NCBI RefSeq assembly: GCF_000355805.1
Contig: NZ_CM001837.1
Span: forward strand, 1,513,127-1,577,126
Source of the DNA: Dokdonia sp. PRO95
Lineage (GTDB): Bacteria; Bacteroidota; Bacteroidia; Flavobacteriales; Flavobacteriaceae
Length of the DNA stretch: 64,000 bases
Direction: 5' to 3'
Positions within the stretch are counted from its first letter, which is position 1; every line of letters starts with the position of its first letter. Below are positions 30,168 to 44,523 of the stretch, one piece after another. The notes under the pieces are model-generated. The model saw only the letters and a list, made by a program, of their open reading frames with translations, searched no databases and had not been told where the DNA came from. Both the position numbers and the translations under genes were made by a program.

Positions 30168-30593
30168 TTAATTCAGTTGTGTTTGATAAGCTACAGCATA
30201 TAGCTTTATCTGCTTGATCATGCTCACAAGCCCGTTTGCACGGGTAGGAGAGAGGTGGTCTTTAAGTCCTATCTCGTCTATAAACGAAGTGTCTGCATCT
30301 ATAATTGCTTGTGGTGGTTGCCCAGAAAAAGCACGTATAAGTATCGCTATGATTCCTTTTGTGATAATCGCATCACTATCTGCAGTAAAGGCAATCTCAC
30401 CGTCTTTCATATCTGCATGTACCCATACTTTGCTCTGGCAGCCTTTTATGATGTAATCATCAGTTTTAAACTGATCATCAATCATAGGAAGTGATTTTCC
30501 TAAGTCTATCATATACTCATAACGTTGCATCCAGTCTTCAAACATGCTGAACTCATCAACGATTTCATCTTGTATTTCTTGTATACTTGCCAT
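30168..30593 (-). CDS. sufE: SufE family sulfur acceptor
   Basis: Accepts persulfide sulfur from SufS for Fe-S assembly; 141 residues, the usual SufE size. DEFSMFEDWMQRYEYMIDLG is the family start, and the active Cys is in YIIKGCQSKVWVHA near residue 50; SPTRANGLVSMIKQIK closes the domain. It lies 2 bases after the META-domain gene and downstream of sufS. Confidence 0.93.
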   Translation of the reverse strand: MASIQEIQDEIVDEFSMFEDWMQRYEYMIDLGKSLPMIDDQFKTDDYIIKGCQSKVWVHADMKDGEIAFTADSDAIITKGIIAILIRAFSGQPPQAIIDADTSFIDEIGLKDHLSPTRANGLVSMIKQIKLYAVAYQTQLN

Positions 30594-30595
30594 AA

Positions 30596-31024
30596 TTATA
30601 TTGCTGTTGATGTTGCTTTAAAAAGTACTTGGTCTTTGTTATATAAAGTAAGTGTTCCGTTTTTGAGAGTGTATCTATTTACCTTTAGGAGATTTTGGAA
30701 AATTTTTTTCTCTAAATCCATAGCCTCCGCAGGACATGCTTTTTTAGTAGATAACGGATCTGTAATATCTAATTTATCCTTTGTGAGTGTAAACGCTGCA
30801 TTATAAGAATTACATCCAGAAAAACCAGTTATTCTCCTTTTTTGATTTTCTATGTTAAAGGTGATTCCTTGTTTTGTGATTGGATTTTCTGCGACACTCG
30901 TAAGTGTGTAGTATCCAGAAAATCTAGGTGCTTTCACGTCCGGTTCGCTTTCCTTTTTTTCGGTTGCGCAGCTGCTTAAAAAGAGGCCTAGCATTAAAGC
31001 GATGATGTAATATGTGTGTTTCAT
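30596..31024 (-). CDS. META-domain lipoprotein
   Basis: Exported lipoprotein of 142 residues. Signal peptide with lipobox (LFLSSC), then a META/HslJ-like domain with ITGFSGCNSYNAAFTL and LSTKKACPAEAMDLEKKIF. The two Cys of these motifs are typical of the family, which is linked to heat-shock or novobiocin phenotypes in E. coli HslJ. It sits between a GNAT gene and sufE on the same strand, with its own -7 box (minus strand, 31048-31041), so it is likely an insertion into the suf order rather than a Suf component. Confidence 0.85.
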   Translation of the reverse strand: MKHTYYIIALMLGLFLSSCATEKKESEPDVKAPRFSGYYTLTSVAENPITKQGITFNIENQKRRITGFSGCNSYNAAFTLTKDKLDITDPLSTKKACPAEAMDLEKKIFQNLLKVNRYTLKNGTLTLYNKDQVLFKATSTAI

Positions 31025-31040
31025 AGTAAAATAGTATTTG

Positions 31041-31048
31041 CAAAGATA
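31041..31048 (-). promoter_or_regulatory. -7 element of the META-domain gene
   Basis: Minus-strand TATCTTTG fits TAnnTTTG and lies 16 bases before the ATG. Confidence 0.5.
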
Positions 31049-31067
31049 GTGCCCAGAAGATTAACTG

Positions 31068-31616
31068 TCATTCTGTCGAGTCTAGCATTTTATGCATATA
31101 CCACATAGGGCGGTATTCATCATGTAATAATGTAAAGTCTAGTTTTTGCTGTTCTGTTTTTTGAAATCCTAATTTCTTATAAAATTGCTGTGCTTGCGTA
31201 TGTTTATCCATAGCGTCTAGCCAGATCAGGGTGTGTTTTTGTGCTATTGCAATTTGTTCTGCATAACCCATCAGAGCATAGCCAACACCTTTGCCTTGAA
31301 CAGATGTGTCTAGGTATATACGATGTACTTTAAAAGCTTTGTGAGATGCTAGCGGTGCATACTCGCAGTCATCAATGAGCTTTAATATACCTACTATCTT
31401 ATCGTTATAGTGCACAAAGTAGTATAGGCTATTATCATCACTAAGCTCTTGAGCTAAGTTTTTTTTGCCATAAATCTGATCGAGATACCATAAGCCTTCG
31501 TCTTTCCAAAAATGCGCATATGCAGATGGATACACCCTCTTCATCAAATTATATAAACGTTCTTGATCTATAAGCTCAATAGACGTTAGTGTAATATGTG
31601 AATTTACCTGTATCAA
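31068..31616 (-). CDS. GNAT-family N-acetyltransferase
   Basis: Acetyl-CoA-dependent acetyltransferase of 182 residues. Motif A is VHRIYLDTSVQGKGVGYALMGYAEQIA (Q/RxxGxG/A: QGKGVG), and motif B is WLDAMDKHTQAQQFYKKLGFQ. The substrate is not predictable. It is 35 bases downstream of sufS on the same strand and probably cotranscribed. Confidence 0.88.
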   Translation of the reverse strand: MIQVNSHITLTSIELIDQERLYNLMKRVYPSAYAHFWKDEGLWYLDQIYGKKNLAQELSDDNSLYYFVHYNDKIVGILKLIDDCEYAPLASHKAFKVHRIYLDTSVQGKGVGYALMGYAEQIAIAQKHTLIWLDAMDKHTQAQQFYKKLGFQKTEQQKLDFTLLHDEYRPMWYMHKMLDSTE

Positions 31617-31651
31617 TATGGCAATGTCTAAAAATGATGTACTATAAGATA

Positions 31652-32866
31652 TTATGAGAGCATGGTAACTGCTCGTTTTAATCCAGTTACAAAGGTGTCT
31701 ATTTCTTCCTTGGTATTATAAAAAGAAAAAGAAGCGCGTACTGTTCCTGGTATTTTATAATACTCCATAATAGGCTGTGCACAGTGATGACCAGTACGCA
31801 CTGCAATGCCTAGTTTGTCAAGTATCGTCCCTATATCATAAGGGTGTATATTTCCTACATTAAAAGAAATAACGGCAGTTTTGTGTGCAGAAGTACCATA
31901 AATCTTTAGACCTTCTATTTCTAGTAATTTCTTCGTTCCATACTGTAAAAGCTCATCTTCATAGCTCGCTATGTTATCGAAGCCTATAGTGTTCATGTAA
32001 TCGAGTCCTGCGGCTGTAGCAATCCCTCCACAAATGTTAGGCGTTCCGGCTTCAAATTTGTGAGGTAAACCAGCATAGGTGGTTTTTTCAAAACTTACTT
32101 GATCTATCATCTCGCCACCACCTTGATAAGGAGGTAGTTTAGTAAGCCATTCTTCTTTTCCGTATAGAATTCCCACTCCAGTAGGGCCGCAAATTTTATG
32201 TGCAGAACATACGTAGAAGTCGGCGTCTAGTGCTTGTACATCTGGTTTGATGTGAGGAGTAGCTTGTGCGCCATCTATAAGAACTGCAGCACCTACTTTA
32301 TGAGCTTCCTCAATGATGTGCTCTATAGGGTTTATAGTTCCTAATGCGTTAGATACGTGGTTTACAAAGACTAGTTTTAAGTTAGGAGATAACGCTTTCG
32401 CGAAAGCGTCCATATCCAGCTCACCACTTTCTGTCTGAGGTATTACTTTAAGTATAGCTCCAGTTTTTTCGCAAAGCATTTGCCATGGTACAATGTTACT
32501 ATGGTGCTCTAGTGCCGAAACTAAAACCTCTTCACCTTCTTTTAGTATTGAGGCAAAACCATGTGCCACAAGATTAATAGCATGTGTAGTTCCTGCAGTG
32601 AGAATGATCTCGTAAGGCTTTGCTGCGTTAAAATGCTTTTGAATTTTAATACGCGCCTCCTCATAAGCGTCTGTTGCTTCTTGAGAAAGTGAGTGTACGC
32701 CGCGATGGATATTTGCATTATAGTTTGAGTAGTAGTCTACAATAGCATCTATAACCACTTGTGGTGTTTGTGAAGTGGCGGCATTATCAAAATAAATAAG
32801 CGGATTTCCATTTACTTCTCTTTTGAGAATAGGGAAGTCATTGCGTATTTTCTTAACGTCTAGCAT
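31652..32866 (-). CDS. sufS: Cysteine desulfurase SufS
   Basis: PLP-dependent group II cysteine desulfurase of 404 residues, releasing sulfur from cysteine for Fe-S assembly. YFDNAATSQTP, HRGVHSLS, VLIDGAQATPH, the PLP lysine in CSAHKICGPTGVGILYG, GTPNICGG and the active-site Cys in RTGHHCAQPIM are all present. Residues 154-158 (AFAKA in MDAFAKALSPN) are encoded by the palindrome at a position where SufS proteins usually have a Phe-x-Lys-Ala-Leu segment. It begins a transcription unit separate from sufD: a terminator and a -7 box lie between. Confidence 0.95.
   Translation of the reverse strand: MLDVKKIRNDFPILKREVNGNPLIYFDNAATSQTPQVVIDAIVDYYSNYNANIHRGVHSLSQEATDAYEEARIKIQKHFNAAKPYEIILTAGTTHAINLVAHGFASILKEGEEVLVSALEHHSNIVPWQMLCEKTGAILKVIPQTESGELDMDAFAKALSPNLKLVFVNHVSNALGTINPIEHIIEEAHKVGAAVLIDGAQATPHIKPDVQALDADFYVCSAHKICGPTGVGILYGKEEWLTKLPPYQGGGEMIDQVSFEKTTYAGLPHKFEAGTPNICGGIATAAGLDYMNTIGFDNIASYEDELLQYGTKKLLEIEGLKIYGTSAHKTAVISFNVGNIHPYDIGTILDKLGIAVRTGHHCAQPIMEYYKIPGTVRASFSFYNTKEEIDTFVTGLKRAVTMLS
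32393..32408. repeat. AFAKA palindrome copy 9 (coding)
   Basis: Perfect CGCTTTCGCGAAAGCG in sufS, in the AFAKA phase on the minus strand. Confidence 0.95.
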
Positions 32867-32883
32867 AGCATTTTTCTTTGTTA

Positions 32884-32891
32884 CAAAGATA
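32884..32891 (-). promoter_or_regulatory. -7 element of the sufS unit
   Basis: Minus-strand TATCTTTG fits TAnnTTTG, 17 bases before the sufS ATG and downstream of the sufD terminator. Confidence 0.55.
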
Positions 32892-32941
32892 CAAACTGGA
32901 CTACTTTTAGGCTACTCCAGTATGTGTTGAGTTTAAAATGA

Positions 32942-32971
32942 AAAAGCCGTTACTGGAGAGTAACGGCTTTT
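32942..32971 (-). terminator. Terminator between sufD and sufS
   Basis: AAAAGCCGTTACT, loop GGAG, AGTAACGGCTTTT: a perfect 13-bp stem whose minus-strand 3' side ends in TTTT, 19 bases after sufD. Confidence 0.85.
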
Positions 32972-32990
32972 AATATATGGTACTAATTAC

Positions 32991-34304
32991 CTATTGCTCG
33001 AAGCCGATGTTTACACCGATTTTCTTAGCAATAAGTTTTGTGATTCTATCCTTTAACTGAGGGATTTTTACACTTGACAGCACTGTGTTTGCAAAAGCAT
33101 ACATCAATAAAGCACGCCCTTCTTTCTCTGCTATACCACGTGATTGTAAATAGAACAGAGCACTCTCGTCTAGTTGACCTATGGTACAACCATGAGAACA
33201 ACGTACATCATCTGCAAAAATCTCTAATTGAGGTTTTGAGTTGATAGTTGCAGTGTCATCTAATAAAATGTTGTTATTAGATTGGTAAGCATTTGTTTTT
33301 TGAGCTTCTTTCTCAACAACTACTTTCCCATTAAATACACCTACAGATTTATCTGCAAAAATACCTTTGTAATCCTGGTGGCTCTCGCAGTTAGGGGTAA
33401 TGTGGTGTACTAGTGTGTTGTGGTCTACGTGCTGTTTTCCTTCTATAATCGTAATACCTTTAAGGATAGAGTCCATGTACTCTCCTTTTTGATAAAAGTT
33501 AAGGTTGTTACGAGTGATGTTTCCACCTAGAGAAAAAGTATGTACAGAAACAATACTTTCTTTGTGCTGCTCTATCTCTGTAGTATCTACAAGGGAAGCA
33601 CTTAGGTTATCGTTCTGAATCTTATAGTAATCTACAAGCGCTCTTTTGTCTGCAAAGATTTCTGTTACAACATTAGTAAGCACTTTCTTGTCTGTAAGAC
33701 TCTGGTGGCGCTCTATAATTTGTACTTCAGAATTTTCTTCGGCAACAATAAGGTTACGTGGTTGTAGCATCATTGCATCATTTGCTCCTGTAGCAAAGTG
33801 TACAATCTGGATAGGCTTTTGTGCTACTTTTCCTTTTGGGATGTAAATGTAAGCACCATCTTTTGCAAATGCAGTGTTAAGAGAATCCATAGATTCACCC
33901 TTTGCAATCTTATTAAAGTAAACGTCTATAACTTGTTTGTACTTTGGCTTTGATAGTGCTGCACCCATTGTACATACATCAATACCATCATGCGTAGTTT
34001 CTGAAAGAAATGAGCTATAAACCCCATCTACAAAAACGATTTTATAAGTGTCTACATCATTAAGAAAATACTGCTTTACATCTTTAAAGTCTAGTGCAGC
34101 TTCTTTACTAGGGAAGATGTTGTAATCTTCCTTAAGAATGCTGTTAAGAGATGTGTATTTCCAGTTTTCTAATTTCTTTGTAGGAAACCCTTCTGCTTCA
34201 AAAGTCTTGATGGCCTCGTTACGAATGTCGTATATATGAGAATCTGCATCAATACTTTCTTGAAGTACGATATGGTTACTTACTAATTTATCTTTTAAAC
34301 TCAT
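32991..34304 (-). CDS. sufD: Fe-S cluster assembly protein SufD
   Basis: SufBCD scaffold subunit of 437 residues. NWKYTSLNSIL at the N-terminus, NTAFAKDGAYIYIPKGKV, HNTLVHHITPNCESHQDYKGIF and the C-terminal SKPQLEIFADDVRCSHGCTIGQLDESALFYLQSRGI carry the SufB/D beta-helix and dimer signatures. Its AFAK is family-typical and is not encoded by the repeat. It follows sufC by 81 bases and is closed by a terminator. Confidence 0.95.
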   Translation of the reverse strand: MSLKDKLVSNHIVLQESIDADSHIYDIRNEAIKTFEAEGFPTKKLENWKYTSLNSILKEDYNIFPSKEAALDFKDVKQYFLNDVDTYKIVFVDGVYSSFLSETTHDGIDVCTMGAALSKPKYKQVIDVYFNKIAKGESMDSLNTAFAKDGAYIYIPKGKVAQKPIQIVHFATGANDAMMLQPRNLIVAEENSEVQIIERHQSLTDKKVLTNVVTEIFADKRALVDYYKIQNDNLSASLVDTTEIEQHKESIVSVHTFSLGGNITRNNLNFYQKGEYMDSILKGITIIEGKQHVDHNTLVHHITPNCESHQDYKGIFADKSVGVFNGKVVVEKEAQKTNAYQSNNNILLDDTATINSKPQLEIFADDVRCSHGCTIGQLDESALFYLQSRGIAEKEGRALLMYAFANTVLSSVKIPQLKDRITKLIAKKIGVNIGFEQ

Positions 34305-34385
34305 CTTTTCTAAGTTATGAATCTAGACAGTTAAGTATAAGGGATATTTTTATTGGGCATATCTCTTATGAGTTGTCTAAACGTA

Positions 34386-35138
34386 TTACGCTCCCACTTC
34401 TTCTTTTAACCAGTCGTATCCTTTTTCTTCAAGTTCAAGAGCAAGCTCTTTTCCTCCAGAACGTACAATTTTACCATTCATAAGAACGTGTACAAAATCT
34501 GGAACGATATAGTCTAGAAGACGCTGGTAGTGAGTGATCACTAGTACTGCGTTGTCTTTGCTCTTTAATTTATTTACGCCATTTGCAACAATACGTAGTG
34601 CATCTATGTCAAGACCAGAATCCGTTTCGTCTAGAATAGCGAGTTTAGGCTCTAGCATTGCCATTTGGAAAATCTCATTACGCTTCTTCTCTCCTCCAGA
34701 AAACCCTACGTTTAATGATCTAGAAAGAAACTTACGATCCATCTCAAGAAGTTCTGCCTTCTCTTTTATCTTTTTAAGCATATCGCTAGCTGGCATATTT
34801 TCTAAGCCTTTAGCTTTGCGAGTTTCATTTATGGCAGTCTTGATAAAGTTAGTCACAGAAACTCCAGGGATCTCTACAGGATATTGAAAAGATAAGAAAA
34901 CACCTTCGTGTGCTCTCTCTTCTGGATCCATTTCTAGTATAGATTCTCCTTCAAGTTCGATGTCTCCATCGCTTACTTCATACTCTTCTTTTCCTGCAAT
35001 AACAGAAGCGAGTGTACTTTTTCCAGAACCGTTAGGTCCCATGATAGCGTGCACTTCGCCAGCTTTTATCTCAAGATTAATACCTTTAAGGATATCCTTC
35101 TCTTCAATTCGTGCGTGTAAATCTTTAACTGATAACAT
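34386..35138 (-). CDS. sufC: Fe-S cluster assembly ATPase SufC
   Basis: ABC-type ATPase of the SufBCD complex, 250 residues. Walker [10 protein letters not shown] near residue 35, Q-loop region [11 protein letters not shown], signature SGGEKKRNE, Walker [15 protein letters not shown] and the switch His in [10 protein letters not shown]. Normal length. A small lipoprotein gene separates it from the metallo-beta-lactamase gene upstream. Confidence 0.96.
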
Positions 35139-35161
35139 AATTCTACGTTCTTATTGTGCGA

Positions 35162-35581
35162 TTATTTACCGCTTTCTACTTTAATGGAAGCGCCCTCTGT
35201 CTTGAGTTTGTCTCCTGCTTCTAATTTAATCGAAGTGTCAGCAGTTGGTGCTTTGACTTCTACTATTTCTTTTATGGTAACTATATAATCCCAACCTTCC
35301 TCACTAGTAGGCTTAGGATTAATGATTCCTTTTATAACAACTGGCACCATATCATATTCATCACGTTGTAATGGTTTTACAATAGTTGCTAGTTCTTGCA
35401 TTTTTTCATCTATAACTACGCCGTGTATAAAGGAATCTCCCTTAATAATAGCGGCATCTTCTAGATATATAAACTCACCTTCGATAGTCTCATATGAGGA
35501 AGAAGACGAGTCCTGGCTAGATTTCTGATTACAGGATACAAGTGCAAGACTTGTTATCAATAAAAAGATAATCTTCTTCAT
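35162..35581 (-). CDS. Lipoprotein of unknown function in the suf operon
   Basis: Lipoprotein of 139 residues with signal peptide and lipobox (LALVSC), a Ser-rich linker (SSQDSSSSSYE), then a small beta-rich domain (EGEFIYLEDAAIIKGDSFIHGVVIDE, VPVVIKGIIN, WDYIVTIKEIVEV). No family recognised. It lies 23 bases before sufC and 3 bases after the metallo-beta-lactamase gene, so the two exported proteins form a pair between sufB and sufC. Confidence 0.75.
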   Translation of the reverse strand: MKKIIFLLITSLALVSCNQKSSQDSSSSSYETIEGEFIYLEDAAIIKGDSFIHGVVIDEKMQELATIVKPLQRDEYDMVPVVIKGIINPKPTSEEGWDYIVTIKEIVEVKAPTADTSIKLEAGDKLKTEGASIKVESGK

Positions 35582-35584
35582 ATT

Positions 35585-36472
35585 TTAATTAAGTATTGCA
35601 GGTGTTTGTGCAAAGTTTCCTGCATCATGCTGGATAATTACCTTGGCATTTTCCGCTTTCGCGAAAGCTTCAAAATCCTTTATACTTTTATCTGTTGCTG
35701 GAATATCATAATTAAACTGAGGTACAATCGCATCTTTGCGGTTTTGCTCAAAATGATAAATATCTCCAGACAACAAGGTTGGTCCGTTATCTTTTAAACG
35801 TAAAAACAATACTTGGTGACCTGGTGTGTGCCCTGGCATAGATTTGATAACTACAGTGCCATCTCCAAAAACGTCTCTATCTCCATTCAGTTTCTCTACG
35901 TTTGTAAGCTTGTTAAAGCTATCTGGCGCATAAAATGAATTTCCTTTGATGTCTTCTCCTTTTGCAAAATCATATTCTGATTCTTGAACCAACCATGTTG
36001 CGTTTGCAAAATGTTTTGCCGCTCCTGTGTGATCAAAATGTATATGAGAAAACGCAATCATATCGATATCCTCAGTAGTCATATCGATACTTTTAAGTTG
36101 ATTTTTTATAGAGTCCTTACGCGTGATTGTAAAAGCCCCTCCTTCTGGAGTATATGGTTCTTGTCCTACCAGCATTTCTGGTAATCCTGTGTCCCATAAA
36201 AGAGTTCCTTTAGGATGCTTGATTACAAAAAATGCATCTGCAAGCTGCTTAGATTCTCCTTTGTAGGTGTCGCCCTGAGCAAATAGGTTTAAGTTATTTG
36301 CCATTACGGTACCACCATCTAGTTTGTATAATGTAACCTCAGGTGAGACTGCTGCAGCTGCTGCCTCTTTTTGGTCTTCTGCTTTTTGCTTTCCATCTTC
36401 ATACCCTTTCTTGAATTCTTCGCAAGAAACAGTAGTTATGGCAAGGGCAGCAATTAATAATATATTTTTCAT
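35585..36472 (-). CDS. Metallo-beta-lactamase-fold lipoprotein (lactonase-like)
   Basis: Exported MBL-fold hydrolase of 295 residues. The signal peptide ends in a lipobox (ITTVSC), followed by an Ala/Glu-rich linker. Metal ligands are visible in FSHIHFDHTGAAKHF (HxHxDH), MPGHTPGHQVLFL, LLSGDIYHF and a final IIQHDAGNF. This layout is closest to N-acyl-homoserine lactonase-type enzymes, but the substrate is unknown. It is inserted between sufB and sufC. Residues 269-273 (AFAKA, in FEAFAKAENAK) come from the dispersed palindrome. Confidence 0.85.
   Translation of the reverse strand: MKNILLIAALAITTVSCEEFKKGYEDGKQKAEDQKEAAAAAVSPEVTLYKLDGGTVMANNLNLFAQGDTYKGESKQLADAFFVIKHPKGTLLWDTGLPEMLVGQEPYTPEGGAFTITRKDSIKNQLKSIDMTTEDIDMIAFSHIHFDHTGAAKHFANATWLVQESEYDFAKGEDIKGNSFYAPDSFNKLTNVEKLNGDRDVFGDGTVVIKSMPGHTPGHQVLFLRLKDNGPTLLSGDIYHFEQNRKDAIVPQFNYDIPATDKSIKDFEAFAKAENAKVIIQHDAGNFAQTPAILN
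35654..35669. repeat. AFAKA palindrome copy 10 (coding)
   Basis: CGCTTTCGCGAAAGCT, 15 of 16, in the metallo-beta-lactamase gene, in the AFAKA phase on the minus strand. Confidence 0.92.
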
Positions 36473-36516
36473 TGTTTTGATAATCTTGGTTTAGAACTCA
36501 ATTGTAATAGTGGATA

Positions 36517-37962
36517 CTATCCTACAGACCCCTCAAGACTAATCTCAAGTAATTTTTGGGCTTCTACAGCAAACTCCATAGGGAGTTTATTAAGTACTTC
36601 TTTTGAGAATCCGTTTACAATTAAAGCAATTGCCTTTTCCGTATCAATACCACGTTGATTACAGTAAAATATCTGGTCTTCACCTATCTTACTAGTGGTT
36701 GCTTCATGTTCTACTTGAGCAGTTTTGTTTTTAGTCTCAATATATGGGAAGGTGTGTGCTCCACACTCGTTACCCATTAATAAAGAATCACACTGCGAGA
36801 AGTTACGTGCATTTGTCGCTCCTGAGTTAATCTTTACTAGACCTCTATATGAGTTTTGAGATTTTCCTGCAGAGATACCTTTTGATATGATTGTACTCTT
36901 GGTGTTTTTTCCAAGGTGTATCATCTTAGTTCCTGTGTCTGCCTGCTGGTGATTGTTTGTCACTGCGATAGAGTAAAACTCACCTATAGAGTTGTCTCCT
37001 TTAAGAATACAAGAAGGGTATTTCCATGTAACTGCGGATCCTGTTTCTACTTGTGTCCATGAGATTTTTGCATTCTTCTCACAAAGACCACGCTTTGTTA
37101 CAAAGTTGTAAACTCCACCTTTTCCTTCTTCATTACCAGGGTACCAGTTTTGAACGGTACTATATTTAATTTCTGCATCGTCCATTGCAATAAGTTCTAC
37201 AACGGCAGCGTGCAGTTGATTCTCATCACGACTAGGAGCGGTACAGCCTTCAAGGTAACTTACATAGCTGCCTTCATCTGCTACAAGTAGTGTTCTTTCA
37301 AACTGTCCAGTTCCTCCTTGATTAATTCGGAAATAGGTAGAAAGTTCCATAGGGCATTTTACACCTTTAGGAATGTAACAGAAAGAACCGTCAGAAAATA
37401 CAGCACTGTTTAATGCTGCGTAGTAATTGTCTTTTACTGGAACTATTGTTCCTAAGTGCTTACGTACTAGTTCTGGGTGTTCTTTTATGGCCTCAGAGAT
37501 ACTCATGAAAATGATTCCTTTCTCTGCAAGTGTCTCTTTAAATGTAGTGGCTACAGAGACAGAGTCTACCACGATATCCATCGCGATATTGTTCATTTTC
37601 TTTTGCTCATCTACAGAGATTCCTAATTTTTTATACATAGCGAGTAGATCTGGATCTACATCGTCTAGTGTTTTGTTAGGGTCTACAGCTACGGGAGCAG
37701 AGTAGTAAGCTATTGATTGAAAATCTGGCTTTTCGTAATTTACGTTTGCCCAGTCTGGCTCTTCCATAGATAACCAAACCTTGTATGCATCAAGTCTCCA
37801 CTCAGTCATCCACGCTGGCTCTTCCTTTTTCTTAGAAATCGCTCGTATGATGTCCTCATTTAATCCTACTGGAAACGTTTCAGACTCAATATCTGTAAAA
37901 AAACCATATTCGTATTCTTTGGTTTTTAGTTCTTCCCTTAAATCATCTTCAGTATATGCCAT
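36517..37962 (-). CDS. sufB: Fe-S cluster assembly protein SufB
   Basis: Main scaffold subunit of SufBCD, 481 residues. [55 protein letters not shown]-like segment, [26 protein letters not shown] and the C-terminal [25 protein letters not shown] are the family blocks, with the conserved cysteines. Start ATG 37962. The gap upstream to the SufA-type gene is 151 bases and holds palindrome copy 11. Confidence 0.96.
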
Positions 37963-38082
37963 GTTTCTTATTTCAATGTGTGATAGAAAAGTATTCCTGC
38001 CCTAAGGGTGCCTTTTCAAAGTATGCTCGCTTTCTTGTTTTAGGGTGTTGTCAAGAAAACTATAATGAGTTTTAAGTAGTTA

Positions 38083-38098
38083 CGCTTTCGCGAAAGCG
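38083..38098. repeat. AFAKA palindrome copy 11 (intergenic)
   Basis: CGCTTTCGCGAAAGCG extended to a perfect 24-base palindrome (38079-38102; outer arms GTTA and TAAC) between sufA and sufB. Confidence 0.95.
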
Positions 38099-38113
38099 TA
38101 ACCAACCAATTTA

Positions 38114-38443
38114 TTATAGAGAAAAGCTTTCTCCGCATCCACAGGTGCGCTGTGCATTTGGATTATTAAAAACAAATCCTTTTCCATTAAGTCCGCCACT
38201 ATATTCTAGTGTAGTACCTATTAAGTAAAGGAAGCTCTTCTTGTCTACGATGAGCTTTACGTCATTGTCTTCAAAAACTTTGTCATCTTCGTGATGTGTT
38301 TTGTCAAAATGAAGGTCGTATGATAAACCACTACAACCACCACTCTTTACGCCTACACGTACATAGTCTGTAGTTACATCAAAACCGTCTTCCTGCATGA
38401 GGCTTGCGATTTTAGTTTTTGCTTGTGAATCTACTTTAATCAT
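38114..38443 (-). CDS. sufA: A-type Fe-S carrier (SufA/IscA/HesB)
   Basis: A-type carrier of 109 residues. The three conserved cysteines are in KSGGCSGLSYDLHF and the C-terminal RTCGCGESFSL. ATG 38443 (MIKVDSQAKTKI) gives the family start; seven further codons are open upstream. It heads the suf gene series and has a well-formed promoter 19 bases upstream. Confidence 0.93.
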   Translation of the reverse strand: MIKVDSQAKTKIASLMQEDGFDVTTDYVRVGVKSGGCSGLSYDLHFDKTHHEDDKVFEDNDVKLIVDKKSFLYLIGTTLEYSGGLNGKGFVFNNPNAQRTCGCGESFSL

Positions 38444-38461
38444 ATCGTTATAAATAGTTTG

Positions 38462-38494
38462 CAAATATAAGGCTTAGGTCTCGTTTTTACACAA
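38462..38494 (-). promoter_or_regulatory. Promoter of the sufA-sufB region
   Basis: On the minus strand, TTG (38494-38492), a 22-base spacer, then TATATTTG (38469-38462), 19 bases before the sufA ATG. No Rrf2/IscR-type palindrome was recognised. Confidence 0.6.
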
Positions 38495-38734
38495 ATCCTA
38501 ACATATAACTAATGCATAGTGCGATAGGGTTTTCTTATAGGTTATTTAAAAGTCTTCTAAAGTTGTTTTTAAGGATATGAGATGTAAAATAACTAGAAAT
38601 TCTATGGTTCTTTTGCTAAAGCTTTGTGTGTGCGGTCTTCTCTAAAATGAGAAGTCATTTTTACTTGAAATGACTCTTGAAACCTAATTTAATCCCGAAG
38701 TTTTTTGAGTAAGTTTTCCACACCGCAATGTTGA

Positions 38735-38742
38735 TAGATTTG
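38735..38742 (+). promoter_or_regulatory. -7-like element in the nrd upstream region
   Basis: TAGATTTG fits TAnnTTTG, 8 bases before GTG 38751 and about 190 bases before nrdB. Either the small frame or nrdB could be its target. Confidence 0.35.
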
Positions 38743-38750
38743 TGTAAATC

Positions 38751-38909
38751 GTGTTACCATATGGAAATAGACTTGATGACAGAGATATGCGTGAAAATGA
38801 AACCTTTGCGAAGGCTAGTAAAATGGCAATTGTGAATATCCTGTTGAAAACGTTGAAAGATAAACGGTTGTTTGAGCCCATAAAAAGTAGACCTTTATTA
38901 TCCGCATAA
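38751..38909 (+). CDS. Possible small protein, 52 residues
   Basis: A frame from GTG 38751 to TAA 38907-38909 encodes a hydrophilic start (LPYGNRLDDRDMRENE), then TFAKASKMAIVNILLKTLKDKRLFEPIK, a probable amphipathic helix. It starts 8 bases after a -7-like box. It contains FAKA, with codons differing from the palindrome only at synonymous sites. There is no homologue I recognise, and a minus-strand frame of similar length overlaps it, so it may be spurious or a gene remnant. Confidence 0.25.
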   Translation: MLPYGNRLDDRDMRENETFAKASKMAIVNILLKTLKDKRLFEPIKSRPLLSA

Positions 38910-38935
38910 TTCTAATCATAATACTCAATTTAGCT

Positions 38936-40213
38936 ATGGAAATTACTCACATCGTCAAGCGCGATTTTCAAACGAAACCTTTTCACCAAGAGAAGATTAC
39001 AAGTGCTATTCTTAAAGCAATGACTGCCATTGAGCATGGAGGTCCTGAAGATGCACAACGTATTTCTGATATGGTTTATAGCGACCTTAAGAAGAGAAAA
39101 GAGCTTGATGCAACTTACATTCCTACTATTGAGCAAATACAAGATCTCGTAGAGCGCAAGTTAATGTTAAGTGAGGAGTTTGTAGATGTTGCAAAAACAT
39201 ACATATTGTACCGTGACGAGCAAGCTCAAAAGCGTAAAACAAACATCTTTGAAAAGAGAATTAATCTTAAGCCGTACGAGTATCCACAATTATACGATTA
39301 TGTGCCAGCGATAAGACACTCTTACTGGATACATACAGAGTATAACTTTACGAGTGATATACAAGATTTTAAAACGCGTATTACAGATGTGGAGCGTAGC
39401 GCGATTAAAAATACAATGCTAGCAATCTCTCAAATAGAAGTTGCGGTAAAAGGTTTTTGGGGAGATATCTACCACAAAATGCCTAAACCAGAAGTAGGAG
39501 CAGTGGGAGCGACGTTTGCAGAGAGTGAGGTGAGACATGCAGATGCATACTCGCACCTTCTTGAAATATTAGGTCTTAATAAAGAGTTTAAGTTACTTAA
39601 GAAAAAGCCTGTAATGATGAAGCGTGTGCAGTACCTAGAGACTGCGCTCAAGAATGCAAAGAGTGAAGACAATAAAGAGTACTCAGAGTCTATATTACTA
39701 TTTTCTCTATTTATAGAGCACGTATCACTGTTTTCTCAGTTCTTAATTATCATGGCTTTTAATAAGCATAAAAATATGCTTAAAGGAATCTCAAACGTAG
39801 TAGAGGCAACTTCTAAGGAGGAGCAAATACACGGAGATTTTGGTATTGATATTATAAAAATTATTAAAGCAGAAAATCCAGAGTGGTTTGATGCAGAGCA
39901 TAGCGCAACCGTACAAGAAATGTGTAAAGAAGCATTCAAAGCAGAAAGCAATATTGTAGACTGGATTTTTGAAGCTGGAGAATTAGACTTCTTACCTAAA
40001 GCGCTTGTAAACGAATTCATAAAAGACAGATTCAATAAATCTCTTACGAGTATTGGTATTGACCCTGTATTTGAAGTTGACCAGAATTTATTAAAAGACG
40101 CAGAGTGGTTTGATGATGAAATCATAGGGACCAAACATGGCGATTTCTTTGTAAAGAGATCTGTTAACTACACAAAAAGAGCACAAAGTATAACCGAAGA
40201 CGACCTATTTTAA
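38936..40213 (+). CDS. nrdB: Ribonucleotide reductase beta subunit with N-terminal ATP-cone
   Basis: Class I ribonucleotide reductase small subunit of 425 residues, which supplies the radical for deoxyribonucleotide synthesis. Residues about 1-100 form an ATP-cone (VKRDFQTKPFHQEKITSAILKAM, PTIEQIQDLVERKLM, VAKTYILYRDEQAQKR), the nucleotide-sensing domain normally found on NrdA. The ferritin-like domain follows, with metal ligands in SQIEVAVK, ESEVRHADAYSH (ExxH), LFIEHVSLFSQF and KEEQIHGDFG (ExxH). This architecture matches the Leeuwenhoekiella blandensis NrdB characterised as an ATP-cone-regulated dimanganese enzyme (class Id). The nrdA ATG follows its stop directly. Confidence 0.93.
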   Translation: MEITHIVKRDFQTKPFHQEKITSAILKAMTAIEHGGPEDAQRISDMVYSDLKKRKELDATYIPTIEQIQDLVERKLMLSEEFVDVAKTYILYRDEQAQKRKTNIFEKRINLKPYEYPQLYDYVPAIRHSYWIHTEYNFTSDIQDFKTRITDVERSAIKNTMLAISQIEVAVKGFWGDIYHKMPKPEVGAVGATFAESEVRHADAYSHLLEILGLNKEFKLLKKKPVMMKRVQYLETALKNAKSEDNKEYSESILLFSLFIEHVSLFSQFLIIMAFNKHKNMLKGISNVVEATSKEEQIHGDFGIDIIKIIKAENPEWFDAEHSATVQEMCKEAFKAESNIVDWIFEAGELDFLPKALVNEFIKDRFNKSLTSIGIDPVFEVDQNLLKDAEWFDDEIIGTKHGDFFVKRSVNYTKRAQSITEDDLF

Positions 40214-42004
40214 ATGAACGATCAAGAACTAATGAAAGACCAAGTTTCTGCATCAACAGCAGGAAAAGAAAATGAACTGTTAACTGCTCGTAAAGAAGCG
40301 TTGTCTAATAAAACAGAAAGTGAAGGAGCCGGATTCAAGTGGCTTACAGAAAATAGTCGTAAGTTTTTAGGTGCAGGATATCTAAGTCCTGGAGTATCTC
40401 CAGAGCAAAGAATAAGAGAAGTTGCAGATAGAGCCGAACAAATTCTAGGAATGCCTGGGTTTAGTGATAAATTCTATGGGTATATGTCTGAAGGGTTTTA
40501 CTCACTTGCTTCTCCAGTATGGTCAAATTTTGGAAAAGAAAGAGGACTCCCTATAAGCTGTTTTGGTTCACATATCTCTGATGATATGGGTAACATTCTA
40601 TACACTCAATCTGAGGTAGGAATGATGTCAAAACTAGGAGGAGGAACTTCTGGTTATTTTGGAAAAATAAGACCAAGAGGTGCAGAGGTGAAGAACAATG
40701 GGCAAGCGTCTGGTTCTGTACACATCATGCAACTTTTTGAATCAATGGTGGATGTGGTAAGTCAAGGGTCTGTAAGACGTGGTCGTTTTTCTCCTTACTT
40801 GCCTATTGAGCATGCAGATATTGAAGAGTTCTTAAAAATAGGAACAGAAGGAAATAGCATCCAAGAGCTTACACACGGTGTTACTGTGACAAGTAAGTGG
40901 ATGGAAGAAATGATCGAGGGTGACAGTGCAAAACGCTCATTATGGGCAAAAGTATTGCAGTCTAGAGGAGAAATGGGATACCCGTATATATTCTTTACAG
41001 ACAACGCAAATAATGGTGCTGCAGATGTATATAAGGATAATAATCACAAAATCTATGCAAGTAACCTTTGTACAGAGATCATGTTACCTTCTAATGATGA
41101 CTGGTCATTCGTATGTGTCCTTTCATCTGTAAACGTACTTCACTATGATAAGTGGAAGGATACAGATGCTGTTGAGACAATGGTATACTTCTTAGATGCT
41201 GTAATTACTGAGTTCCTTGAGAAATTAGAAACTTATAGAGATTCAGACTCTAGAGAAGATCGCCAGACATTCTTATTTATGGAACGTGCTTATAATTTTG
41301 CAAAGTCTAACCGTTCATTAGGGTTAGGAGTATTAGGATGGCACTCATTACTGCAGTCTAGAATGTTACCTTTTAATAGTCAAGAAGCATATAACTTAAA
41401 CAGCGAAATCTTTAAGGCAATTAAAGATAAGTCTTATAAAGCATCAGAAGAGCTTGCAAAGACATTTGGAGAGCCAGAAGTACTTAAAGGATATGGTAGA
41501 CGTAATGCGACACTTAATGCAGTTGCACCTACAACATCATCTGCTTTCATTTTAGGTCAAGTGTCTCAAGGTATTGAGCCTATCTGGTCAAATATTTATG
41601 TAAAAGATATAGCAAAGATTAAGACTACGATTAAGAATCCATTCTTAGAAGAACTTCTTGAAGAAAAAGGAATGAATACTACAGAGGTGTGGAGAAGTAT
41701 CCGTGATATGGATGGGTCTGTGCAGCACTTAGAATTTTTGAATGAAAATGAGAAAGATACTTTCAAAACATATTCAGAAATTGATCAAATGGATATTATC
41801 TATCAAGCAGCAAACCGTCAAAATCACATTGATCAAGGGCAGTCTGTAAATATTATTGTGCACCCAGAAATGCCAGTAAAAGAGATTAACAAAATCCACG
41901 TAACAGCATGGAAGCTAGGATTAAAATCTTTATACTACCAGCACAGTATGAATGCAGCTCAAAAATTCAAGCAGAAGAAAGACTGCGCAAGTTGTGAAGC
42001 ATAA
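40214..42004 (+). CDS. nrdA: Ribonucleotide reductase alpha subunit lacking an ATP-cone
   Basis: Catalytic large subunit, 596 residues, shorter than E. coli NrdA because no N-terminal ATP-cone is present. Catalytic residues are visible: substrate-site Cys in LPISCFGSH, NLCTEIMLP (radical Cys and Glu), partner Cys in FVCVLSSVN, radical-transfer tyrosines in LYYQHSMNAA, and a C-terminal CASC pair for re-reduction. Allosteric overall activity control is therefore expected to come from the ATP-cone on NrdB. ATG 40214 abuts the nrdB stop. Confidence 0.95.
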   Translation: MNDQELMKDQVSASTAGKENELLTARKEALSNKTESEGAGFKWLTENSRKFLGAGYLSPGVSPEQRIREVADRAEQILGMPGFSDKFYGYMSEGFYSLASPVWSNFGKERGLPISCFGSHISDDMGNILYTQSEVGMMSKLGGGTSGYFGKIRPRGAEVKNNGQASGSVHIMQLFESMVDVVSQGSVRRGRFSPYLPIEHADIEEFLKIGTEGNSIQELTHGVTVTSKWMEEMIEGDSAKRSLWAKVLQSRGEMGYPYIFFTDNANNGAADVYKDNNHKIYASNLCTEIMLPSNDDWSFVCVLSSVNVLHYDKWKDTDAVETMVYFLDAVITEFLEKLETYRDSDSREDRQTFLFMERAYNFAKSNRSLGLGVLGWHSLLQSRMLPFNSQEAYNLNSEIFKAIKDKSYKASEELAKTFGEPEVLKGYGRRNATLNAVAPTTSSAFILGQVSQGIEPIWSNIYVKDIAKIKTTIKNPFLEELLEEKGMNTTEVWRSIRDMDGSVQHLEFLNENEKDTFKTYSEIDQMDIIYQAANRQNHIDQGQSVNIIVHPEMPVKEINKIHVTAWKLGLKSLYYQHSMNAAQKFKQKKDCASCEA

Positions 42005-42056
42005 TCTGTAAAAGATTAAGAATATTGCTTAATGTATGTTGAGCAAACCATATAAT

Positions 42057-42090
42057 AAGAAAGACCTGCTGTGATAGCGGGTCTTTCTTT
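42057..42090. terminator. Terminator after nrdA
   Basis: AAGAAAGACC-T-GCT, loop GTGAT, AGC-G-GGTCTTTCTT then a run of T. It also faces the convergent hydrolase gene, with palindrome copy 12 just beyond. Confidence 0.82.
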
Positions 42091-42116
42091 TTTTTGTGTT
42101 TATACTGTTTTTAATA

Positions 42117-42132
42117 CGCTTTCGCGAAAGCG
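42117..42132. repeat. AFAKA palindrome copy 12 (intergenic)
   Basis: Perfect CGCTTTCGCGAAAGCG (18 bases with A and T, 42116-42133) between the nrdA terminator and the 3' end of the hydrolase gene. Confidence 0.95.
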
Positions 42133-42141
42133 TAGTTTATA

Positions 42142-44523
42142 TCACAACCTGTTCATAAAACCTACATTGTCTATAATGATCACACCTTCTTTCGTATTAT
42201 CAAAAACGAATGTGATACTCATAATTTCTTTTAAGTTAATAGCCTTGTTGCGATCTTGGAAGTCCTTTAATGGAAAATAATACGTCTGAAATACATTTTC
42301 TGAGAGTGTTTCCTCTCCTATAAATTGAGATTTCCACACTCTCACACCTATCTCATTTTGCAATGCAGTGAAGTCACTTAAACACATAGAAGCTGTGTTT
42401 CCAGTAGCGTCCTCAATACTAATTGTAAAGTCAATAGGTTCTTCTGGGAGCTCTGTGTCTTCACCATAATCTATATTATCTTCGGTAGTTTCCTCACTGC
42501 TGTTAGCGATGTTGTTAGTCGGTACTGGTTTATTGTTTATAGTGTTGTCTTCATTGTTTATCCATTTTCCACCAGATTTTGGATTAGTACTTTCGTTGGA
42601 TTCTGCTAGTGAAAATGTAAATACCTTGCTGCTGTCTATGGTGCTGAGCGGCTTTTTAAAAACAAATGAATAACTAGCAACGAGGCTATCGGGAAGGTCA
42701 GTCCCTTCTTCAATATCATCGTAGTGCCAACCCACATATGCCGCGCGACTACCTTTCTCTCCCCATTTTAGTGCTATTTCTTGTTCTCTCCAGACGCTTA
42801 GGTGTTGCGTTGTTATTGTCGTGGTGGTGTCTATAGTAGTCACAACATCAAAATCTTCATCAAAAGTAGCAATGGCATCAAAAGAGCTATCCTCATATTG
42901 ATTAAGGTAGATGGTTTCTGGAAGCCATTCTTTCCCTTTGCGAGCATCTATAAATAGTGGTAGGTATTCCTTTCGATTTTTAAGAGTTGTTTCTAGAAAG
43001 GCACTTATATAAACCTTAGCGATTTGTTCTTGATCTTCTTTGGGAAGTAATTGCTTGTTATTTAAAAACGGAGTAACAGAAAGCCCTGCATCATTAGCTC
43101 CCCAGCTAGTATTAAACTGTCCGTGATTTGCTCCTTGTATATAAAGTCCGCTTTTTATGTAATCTGTACTATCAGAAAATGTGATGCGTTCATATTGCTT
43201 GGATCCTGCATAAGAACTTACATCACCATCTTGAGCGCCATGCATCACAAAGTAGTTGATGTCTTTAAGTGATGTGCGGGTATTCCCAGGTTCGTACTGT
43301 CCGTCTACAGGAGCAATCGCAATAATAGTGTTGATATTGTAGTTATAATCCATGGCGATGGTTGCATCATCAGGGTAATGAGTAAACTTGTTTAGTAAGG
43401 CGGTATGTGCCACGGCTTCGCCACCTCTAGAGTGACCTAGTAATGCTATCTGGGTGGTGTCGACTTTTTTGTAAAAACTACTTTCTGAATCTTCATTCCA
43501 CTCATGCCATGCTTTTAGATGTTCTAGAAGTATCCAGCCACGAGCATCATTTTCTTCGTTAAGACCTTCAGGAATATCTGACCAACTGCTATTGATGAAA
43601 TTTTGATCTACAGATGCAAAAATGAATCCTCTTGATGCCATTAATTCTCCTAGATACGCATAACCTTGGTCTGAGAAGTCGTGCATGGAGTGATTACCGT
43701 GAACAATTAATGCAAGCGGGAACGGGCCTTCTCCCTCTGGATACCACACCCTGCCGTTTACTGGAAGTTCTCTAGCGTCAAATCCCCAAAAGCGTTCTCT
43801 ATACCATCCGCTCATTCCTTCCCAATTATCTAAAAACGGTATTCCGTTTATAGTGTTTGTGATTATAGTGGCGTCTTCTCCATATTCAGGTCTGTGTTTG
43901 TCAGTACCGCTACCGTACGTTAATGTCTGTACTTTGTAATTACCATTTAGGGATGGAGATGGAGCTTCAATTGGTGCAATATTATCTGAACTTAGAGCAG
44001 CCGCATTTGCTATTGGTTGCATGTCAAAACCGTCAGGCGCAAGTCCTAAAATCGCGAGTGTACATCCAGTAATTGCGAGTACTCCTCCCAGAAGTGTTAT
44101 TGTTTTTTTTATAATAGTCTTCTGTCTAAATCCTTTATTAGTAAGAACTGCAATAGTAGCTCCTCCAAATGCAAGTGTAACCACAGCCCACAACCAATAA
44201 ACGAGTTCTTCTGATAATGATAGCAGAAGGAGTGGTGTAGTGATCAGTAGTGCTAGCTGAAGAATTTTAGGAATGCGAGCAAGCTTTTTGAGTACCCATA
44301 ATCCTAAGTATACAGATAGTACAATCCCTATAAGAATAGCGAGCTGTAACAATATGAGTGTACTGTCACCCATCGTTTGTATGGCGTGTATCGCAAAAAT
44401 CAAAAATATAATGGAGGCCCCTATGAGGAGTCCTCTTGCGGCACCCTTAGTGGCAATTGCACCAGGAGTGATTGTCTTTAATTGCTTATAAATCCATTTT
44501 TTAAGTTGTAATAATCGTTTCAT
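42142..44523 (-). CDS. Membrane-anchored alpha/beta hydrolase, multidomain
   Basis: Large protein of 793 residues. The N-terminal ~165 residues have about five hydrophobic helices. An alpha/beta-hydrolase domain follows: VWYPEGEGPFPLALIVHGNHSMHDFSDQ (oxyanion region), the nucleophile elbow LLGHSRGGEAVA, an Asp region HGAQDGDVSSY and the His in QGANHGQFN. A C-terminal beta-rich part (TNPKSGGKWINNEDN to the end) resembles a carbohydrate-binding or jelly-roll domain. It looks like a lipase/polyesterase-type enzyme facing the periplasm; the substrate is unknown. Confidence 0.8.
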   Translation of the reverse strand: MKRLLQLKKWIYKQLKTITPGAIATKGAARGLLIGASIIFLIFAIHAIQTMGDSTLILLQLAILIGIVLSVYLGLWVLKKLARIPKILQLALLITTPLLLLSLSEELVYWLWAVVTLAFGGATIAVLTNKGFRQKTIIKKTITLLGGVLAITGCTLAILGLAPDGFDMQPIANAAALSSDNIAPIEAPSPSLNGNYKVQTLTYGSGTDKHRPEYGEDATIITNTINGIPFLDNWEGMSGWYRERFWGFDARELPVNGRVWYPEGEGPFPLALIVHGNHSMHDFSDQGYAYLGELMASRGFIFASVDQNFINSSWSDIPEGLNEENDARGWILLEHLKAWHEWNEDSESSFYKKVDTTQIALLGHSRGGEAVAHTALLNKFTHYPDDATIAMDYNYNINTIIAIAPVDGQYEPGNTRTSLKDINYFVMHGAQDGDVSSYAGSKQYERITFSDSTDYIKSGLYIQGANHGQFNTSWGANDAGLSVTPFLNNKQLLPKEDQEQIAKVYISAFLETTLKNRKEYLPLFIDARKGKEWLPETIYLNQYEDSSFDAIATFDEDFDVVTTIDTTTTITTQHLSVWREQEIALKWGEKGSRAAYVGWHYDDIEEGTDLPDSLVASYSFVFKKPLSTIDSSKVFTFSLAESNESTNPKSGGKWINNEDNTINNKPVPTNNIANSSEETTEDNIDYGEDTELPEEPIDFTISIEDATGNTASMCLSDFTALQNEIGVRVWKSQFIGEETLSENVFQTYYFPLKDFQDRNKAINLKEIMSITFVFDNTKEGVIIIDNVGFMNRL

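Follow-up and report, generated by a model that had tools for sequence, protein, structure and literature searches.

Dokdonia sp. PRO95 carries an ATP-cone on the radical-generating subunit of the only ribonucleotide reductase detected in its genome

Two adjoining genes for a ribonucleotide reductase (RNR) lie on the forward strand of the window, by which we mean the whole stretch of DNA of the marine bacterium Dokdonia sp. PRO95 that was analyzed (64,000 nucleotides). The ORF coordinates place the ATG codon of nrdA directly 3' of the stop codon of nrdB, and the locus contains the following features.

38936..40213, + strand: nrdB, probable class Id (NrdBi-type) radical-generating subunit with an N-terminal ATP-cone, 425 aa
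38948..39223, + strand: ATP-cone domain, NrdB residues 5-96 (PF03477, E 2.6e-19)
39173..39175, + strand: codon of NrdB residue 80, a one-residue insertion in the alpha3-alpha4 loop (alignment of 80 loci, the best 80 of 90, and model)
39257..40081, + strand: radical-generating core, NrdB residues 108-382 (PF00268 Ribonuc_red_sm, E 2.8e-62)
40214..42004, + strand: nrdA, short catalytic subunit without an ATP-cone, 596 aa
42057..42089, + strand: terminator-like hairpin of 15 pairs followed by a T run, 3' of nrdA (consensus scan only)

The original prediction held that NrdB carries a complete N-terminal ATP-cone and that NrdA lacks one, and both parts of it stood up. The NrdB cone covers positions 2-86 of the 88 positions of the Pfam ATP-cone and scores 70 bits against a cut-off of 25.8. 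A second ATP-cone, on NrdA, was the counter-case named with that prediction; none was found in NrdA at E <= 1, either with Pfam or with a profile made from 18 coned NrdBs, which recovered 16 of 16 control loci. What Pfam does match in NrdA at E <= 1 is Ribonuc_red_lgC, Ribonuc_red_lgN (24.6 bits, slightly below the cut-off of 28) and, weakly, DnaJ-X (E 0.028). The protein belongs to TIGR02510 (NCBIfam, E 4.6e-230), its two best solved matches are 6dqx and 6dqw, and it contains C116, N284, C286, E288, C301, Y574 and Y575 as well as a C-terminal CASC motif at 591-594. Nine NrdA positions do not vary across any of the 80 loci (the best 80 of 90); their roles are presumed by analogy to the E. coli enzyme. 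The nearest relatives in this set are the uncultured Dokdonia loci L007 and L008, with NrdB identities of 99% and 88%, respectively.

Just upstream of nrdB, and divergent from it, lie SUF iron-sulphur assembly genes (SufE, SufBD-type and Fe-S_biosyn domains; 30168-38464, - strand). Rfam applied to the whole window returned two tRNAs, with no match in the region upstream of nrdB (38465-38935). As to a promoter in that region, only consensus-like matches were seen (19 across 38400-42250, versus 13.0 in shuffles), and TANNTTTG, which we take to be a flavobacterial promoter word, is no more frequent in the window than expected by chance (81 copies versus 81.3); no promoter is claimed. The consensus scan of 38400-42250 also gave five terminator-like sites, versus a mean of 1.6 in shuffles. 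Beyond the hairpin, a 16-base palindrome, CGCTTTCGCGAAAGCG, is present at 42117-42132 and at 14 other exact sites in the window (0.00 expected), together with four further window copies that have one mismatch; it recurs 577 times in the 3.3 Mb genome, versus 0 for a reversed control pattern. The 12-base core of this palindrome has 19 copies in the window, 11 of which lie inside listed ORFs, 10 of those 11 sharing one reading-frame offset. The core is also found in L007, L008 and two Nonlabens loci and is absent in the other 76 of L009-L086 (among the best 80 of 90). We take the palindrome to resemble the HIP1 palindrome of cyanobacteria; the 12-base string was not found in the literature text searched.

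The best solved match to NrdB is the full-length NrdB of Leeuwenhoekiella blandensis (5olk), and the E value of 5.2e-213 over residues 2-425 excludes a chance match. Kinship with this enzyme had been proposed in the original prediction, and it extends over the full length and down to the level of individual residues, with identities of 56% (cone) and 79% (core); the lower figure, that of the cone, counts against the likeness. After 5olk, the sequence search ranked a truncated version of the same protein and then further class Id NrdB structures. An AlphaFold2 model of NrdB, built from 21 sequences (mean pLDDT 76.6, pTM 0.66), gives a cone composed of a hairpin and helices 18-31, 37-57, 65-78 and 83-99. 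The best whole-chain structural match to the model is again 5olk (Z 39.1, rmsd 10.1 over 378 residues, with the domain angle not fixed by the model), and the best match to the core is 6sf5 (Z 36.6, rmsd 2.1 over 290 residues). The large rmsd to 5olk most likely reflects an uncertain cone-to-core angle in the model, as residues 101-115 have a pLDDT below 50.

According to the text of PMC5794259, the interface through which L. blandensis cones meet includes Asp73, residue 76, Met80, Lys89, Ile92 and Ile93, with Arg95 salt-bridged to Asp73 (residue 76 is printed there as Asp76 and is Glu in the chain). The corresponding residues here are D70, E73, M77, K87, I90, L91 and R93. Six of the seven are identical to those of 5olk, the seventh being Leu in place of Ile93; among the best 80 of 90 loci, the six are constant in all 80, and the seventh position has Leu in 73 loci and Ile in the other 7. 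The cone-cone interface is thus conserved, with a one-residue loop insertion beside it. As for nucleotide contacts, L. blandensis Arg102, which touches the gamma-phosphate in the account of PMC5794259, is equivalent to R100, and cone contacts of NrdR named in the text of PMC9110341 fall on K8, R9 and K20 by motif counting rather than by alignment. These four residues are the same in the window and in 5olk, in a comparison that covers the contacts named in the texts. By the same counting, NrdR contact Glu56 falls on Lys14, so the set of NrdR contacts is only partly shared.

The extra residue (position 80) is confined to three cones, those of the window, L007 and L008; the 78 other loci among the best 80 of 90 all lack it, as does 5olk. 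In the model, it lies within loop 79-82, which joins helices 65-78 and 83-99. An insertion in a loop joining two tetramer-interface helices could change the response of the cone, and both its presence in these three Dokdonia cones and its place in the model would suit a cone switch that has been weakened or retuned in Dokdonia, the insertion loosening the beta4 contact. Such a change seems rather improbable, however, since six of the seven interface residues and the nucleotide-contact residues checked are unchanged, and the insertion, because it is also present in the 88% identical L008, appears old and tolerated.

In the core, NrdB has the ligand set E168, E198, H201, E261, E296 and H299 (four Glu and two His), three of which (H201, E296 and H299) we take to be ligands from their ExxH motifs. 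The first three Glu are the counterparts of Glu170, Glu200 and Glu263, which the texts of PMC5794259 and PMC6754362 name as ligands in L. blandensis. The markers K172, W175, Y205 and T292 are also present, as is Y412, and all of these residues, ligands included, are identical in 47 of 47 chosen NrdB rows. A first-ligand Glu, a Trp and, in a subgroup, a Lys are described as NrdBi signatures in the text of PMC6754362, and NrdB shows this class Id pattern in E168 with K172 and W175 downstream. The pairing of a Tyr with a Thr that goes with class Id is likewise present, as judged from sequence positions, in Y205 and T292. Because Y205 stands at the radical-tyrosine position, as does L. blandensis Tyr207, one might think of a class Ia or Ib enzyme, with a tyrosyl radical and Fe or Mn, that merely gained a cone, but this is highly improbable given the Glu168, Lys172 and Trp175 signature and the fact that the eight best sequence matches and nine best fold matches are NrdBs of L. 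blandensis, Flavobacterium johnsoniae and Aggregatibacter, each of which has been described as class Id or dimanganese.

The locus would thus very probably encode a class Id (NrdAi/NrdBi-type) RNR of the L. blandensis design, to which Mn use, dATP inhibition and beta4 formation may be ascribed by homology. By analogy with characterized homologues, as set out in the texts of PMC5794259, PMC6754362, PMC8350387 and PMC6187632, NrdB would build a Mn2 cofactor that supplies a radical hole to NrdA, and a cysteine of NrdA would reduce ribonucleotides. With ATP in the NrdB cone, the enzyme could be active as alpha2beta2. If dATP built up, two molecules of it per cone would cause the cones of two NrdB dimers to stick together as beta4, which would bind NrdA unproductively, and dNTP synthesis would stop.

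Among known systems, the closest is that of L. blandensis (NrdAi/NrdBi; 5olk, 6sf4 and 6sf5; described in the texts of PMC5794259, PMC6754362 and PMC8350387), which has the same cone on NrdB, a cone-less NrdA, the same class Id ligands and markers and six of the seven interface residues. It differs in the sequence of its cone (the 56% noted above), in lacking the loop insertion and in having also a class II RNR (PMC5794259, in its text), whereas no second RNR was detected in the genome of the window. Facklamia ignava NrdAi/NrdBi likewise has an ATP-cone on a class Id NrdB, but that protein bears, in the account of PMC6187632, an extra N-terminal glutaredoxin domain that is missing here. The class Id RNR of F. 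johnsoniae (6cwo, 6cwp and 6cwq) provides a solved NrdB relative with the same class Id core and, unlike NrdB of the window, no ATP-cone according to the text of PMC6754362. Phages of Sporosarcina and Staphylococcus (L121 and L122) also have a coned NrdB and the order nrdB-nrdA, with whole-protein identities of 56.6% and 55.3%, respectively, but these loci are phage-borne. The Dokdonia locus is an ordinary and well-supported example of the L. blandensis design that adds two modest points, namely that it is the sole RNR detected in its genome and that its cone has a loop insertion. The placing of the cone on the radical-making instead of the catalytic subunit was known from a related bacterium, and this move of the activity switch is a known evolutionary surprise.

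All 80 of the best 80 of 90 loci are coned and have the order nrdB-nrdA, a frequency of cones that is biased because one search pattern lay in the cone. In a survey of the family (149 genomes, one per genus), 38 genomes have a full-length coned NrdB, with a match starting at residue 1-4; in six further genomes, a class Id-like NrdB matches at 44-48% identity, but only from residue 97-103 onward. Among 392 genomes of the phylum, a sample that overlaps that of the family and whose counts are kept separate, 35 matched at E <= 1e-20; nine of these are coned, all in the family of the window, and the remaining 26 matches begin at residue 98 or later. Coned NrdBs are also found in phages of Staphylococcus, Sporosarcina and Salicola (with the cone verified in L121, L122 and L125), and cone-less relatives with 57-63% identity in the core are carried by four viral contigs. 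In Staphylococcus phage CF5 (L122, 4362-7089), the annotation splits the nrdA 3' of the coned nrdB into two pieces, with an HNH endonuclease gene between them. In Salicola phage SCTP-2 (L125, 3797-6233), the nrdA beside the coned nrdB has an intein-like LAGLIDADG insert; the locus ends before this gene is complete.

An unrooted tree of NrdB cores was made from 47 rows. Besides the window and 5olk, it includes 45 selected loci: 12 from the set of 80, a single one from the nine coned loci L087-L095, all 21 of L096-L116, the four viral contigs and seven phage or plasmid stretches. The order nrdB-nrdA is found in 45 of the 45 loci, of which 16 have a cone and 29 do not; having nrdB first is thus not tied to having a cone. 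The cone profile recovered each of the 16 coned loci and detected no NrdB cone among the remaining 29, where its single hit, in L123 (E 0.00023, in a 166-aa frame), fits an annotated nrdR beside nrdB. On this tree, the flavobacterial coned proteins form one group of 15 rows with a support of 100/100. Cone state requires at least two changes on it, the second being forced by the Salicola phage row, which sits on a very long branch, and a topology that unites all coned rows is not rejected (p-AU 0.118). Gain and loss of the cone look alike on the tree because it is unrooted. A proposal put forward in the text of PMC9669993 is that NrdB gained its cone when nrdB was inserted inside a coned nrdA.

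NrdB and NrdA are the only RNR detected in the complete Dokdonia genome (one contig, 3,305,093 bases, 99.93% complete). The large-chain family PF02867 matched this NrdA alone (three pieces, one gene), the small-chain family PF00268 matched this NrdB alone, and the class III family (NRDD) had no match, in searches whose controls were positive in 11, 7 and 8 of 14 known genomes, respectively. The same state recurs in the family survey: the adjacent short NrdA is the only large-chain match in 14 of the 38 coned genomes, and the class III family is also absent in 12 of these 14, which leaves the coned enzyme as the sole RNR detected in 12 of 38. The other two, G024 and G146, have a class III gene and were not counted. 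Large-chain matches number four or five in 23 of the 24 remaining coned genomes, which exceeds the three pieces that this NrdA yields. The last of the 24, G051 (7% contamination, no PF02867 match), was kept among the 38 without being counted as a sole-RNR genome. According to the text of PMC5794259, all species with a coned NrdB also encode other RNRs. This generalization of 2018, which concerns carriers and not the enzyme, is at odds with what was detected in Dokdonia, and the 12 sole-RNR coned genomes do not fit it, as no other RNR was detected in them. We found no statement of this point for coned NrdB in the literature searched, which covered few subscription papers. Figures in the text of PMC5932025, in which a class II RNR is present in 2 of 35 proteorhodopsin-bearing versus 23 of 41 other marine flavobacterial genomes, fit a frequent lack of a second RNR.

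Apart from that of NrdB, a single ATP-cone match was obtained in the genome at E <= 1. It scores below the cut-off and lies in a protein with ATP-cone and Mrr_cat domains, so that no NrdR-like candidate is found among the ATP-cone matches of the genome. This protein (L002, 1483-2319) has 279 aa, with an N-terminal cone of 22 bits and an Mrr-type restriction endonuclease domain (E 6.2e-07), a combination that suggests a nucleotide-sensing nuclease. Similar-sized cone-bearing frames are present in G009, G024, G060, G123 and G130.

Because neither a second RNR nor a further RNR-linked cone was found, the NrdB cone is probably the only direct dATP brake on RNR in the cell. It is conceivable, though we hold it only tentatively, that in Dokdonia and about one-third of the coned genomes surveyed, dATP restrains the only RNR solely through the NrdB cone, that the dNTP supply of the whole cell is governed by oligomerization of the radical subunit, and that the brake in Dokdonia has been retuned by the interface-loop insertion. 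If so, such a strain would allow the beta-borne switch to be tested in vivo with no backup RNR. Contrary to the published generalization, a complete genome can have a coned-NrdB enzyme as its only detected RNR, and in such organisms deleting or mutating the cone would reveal what it does physiologically, as no second RNR would hide the effect.
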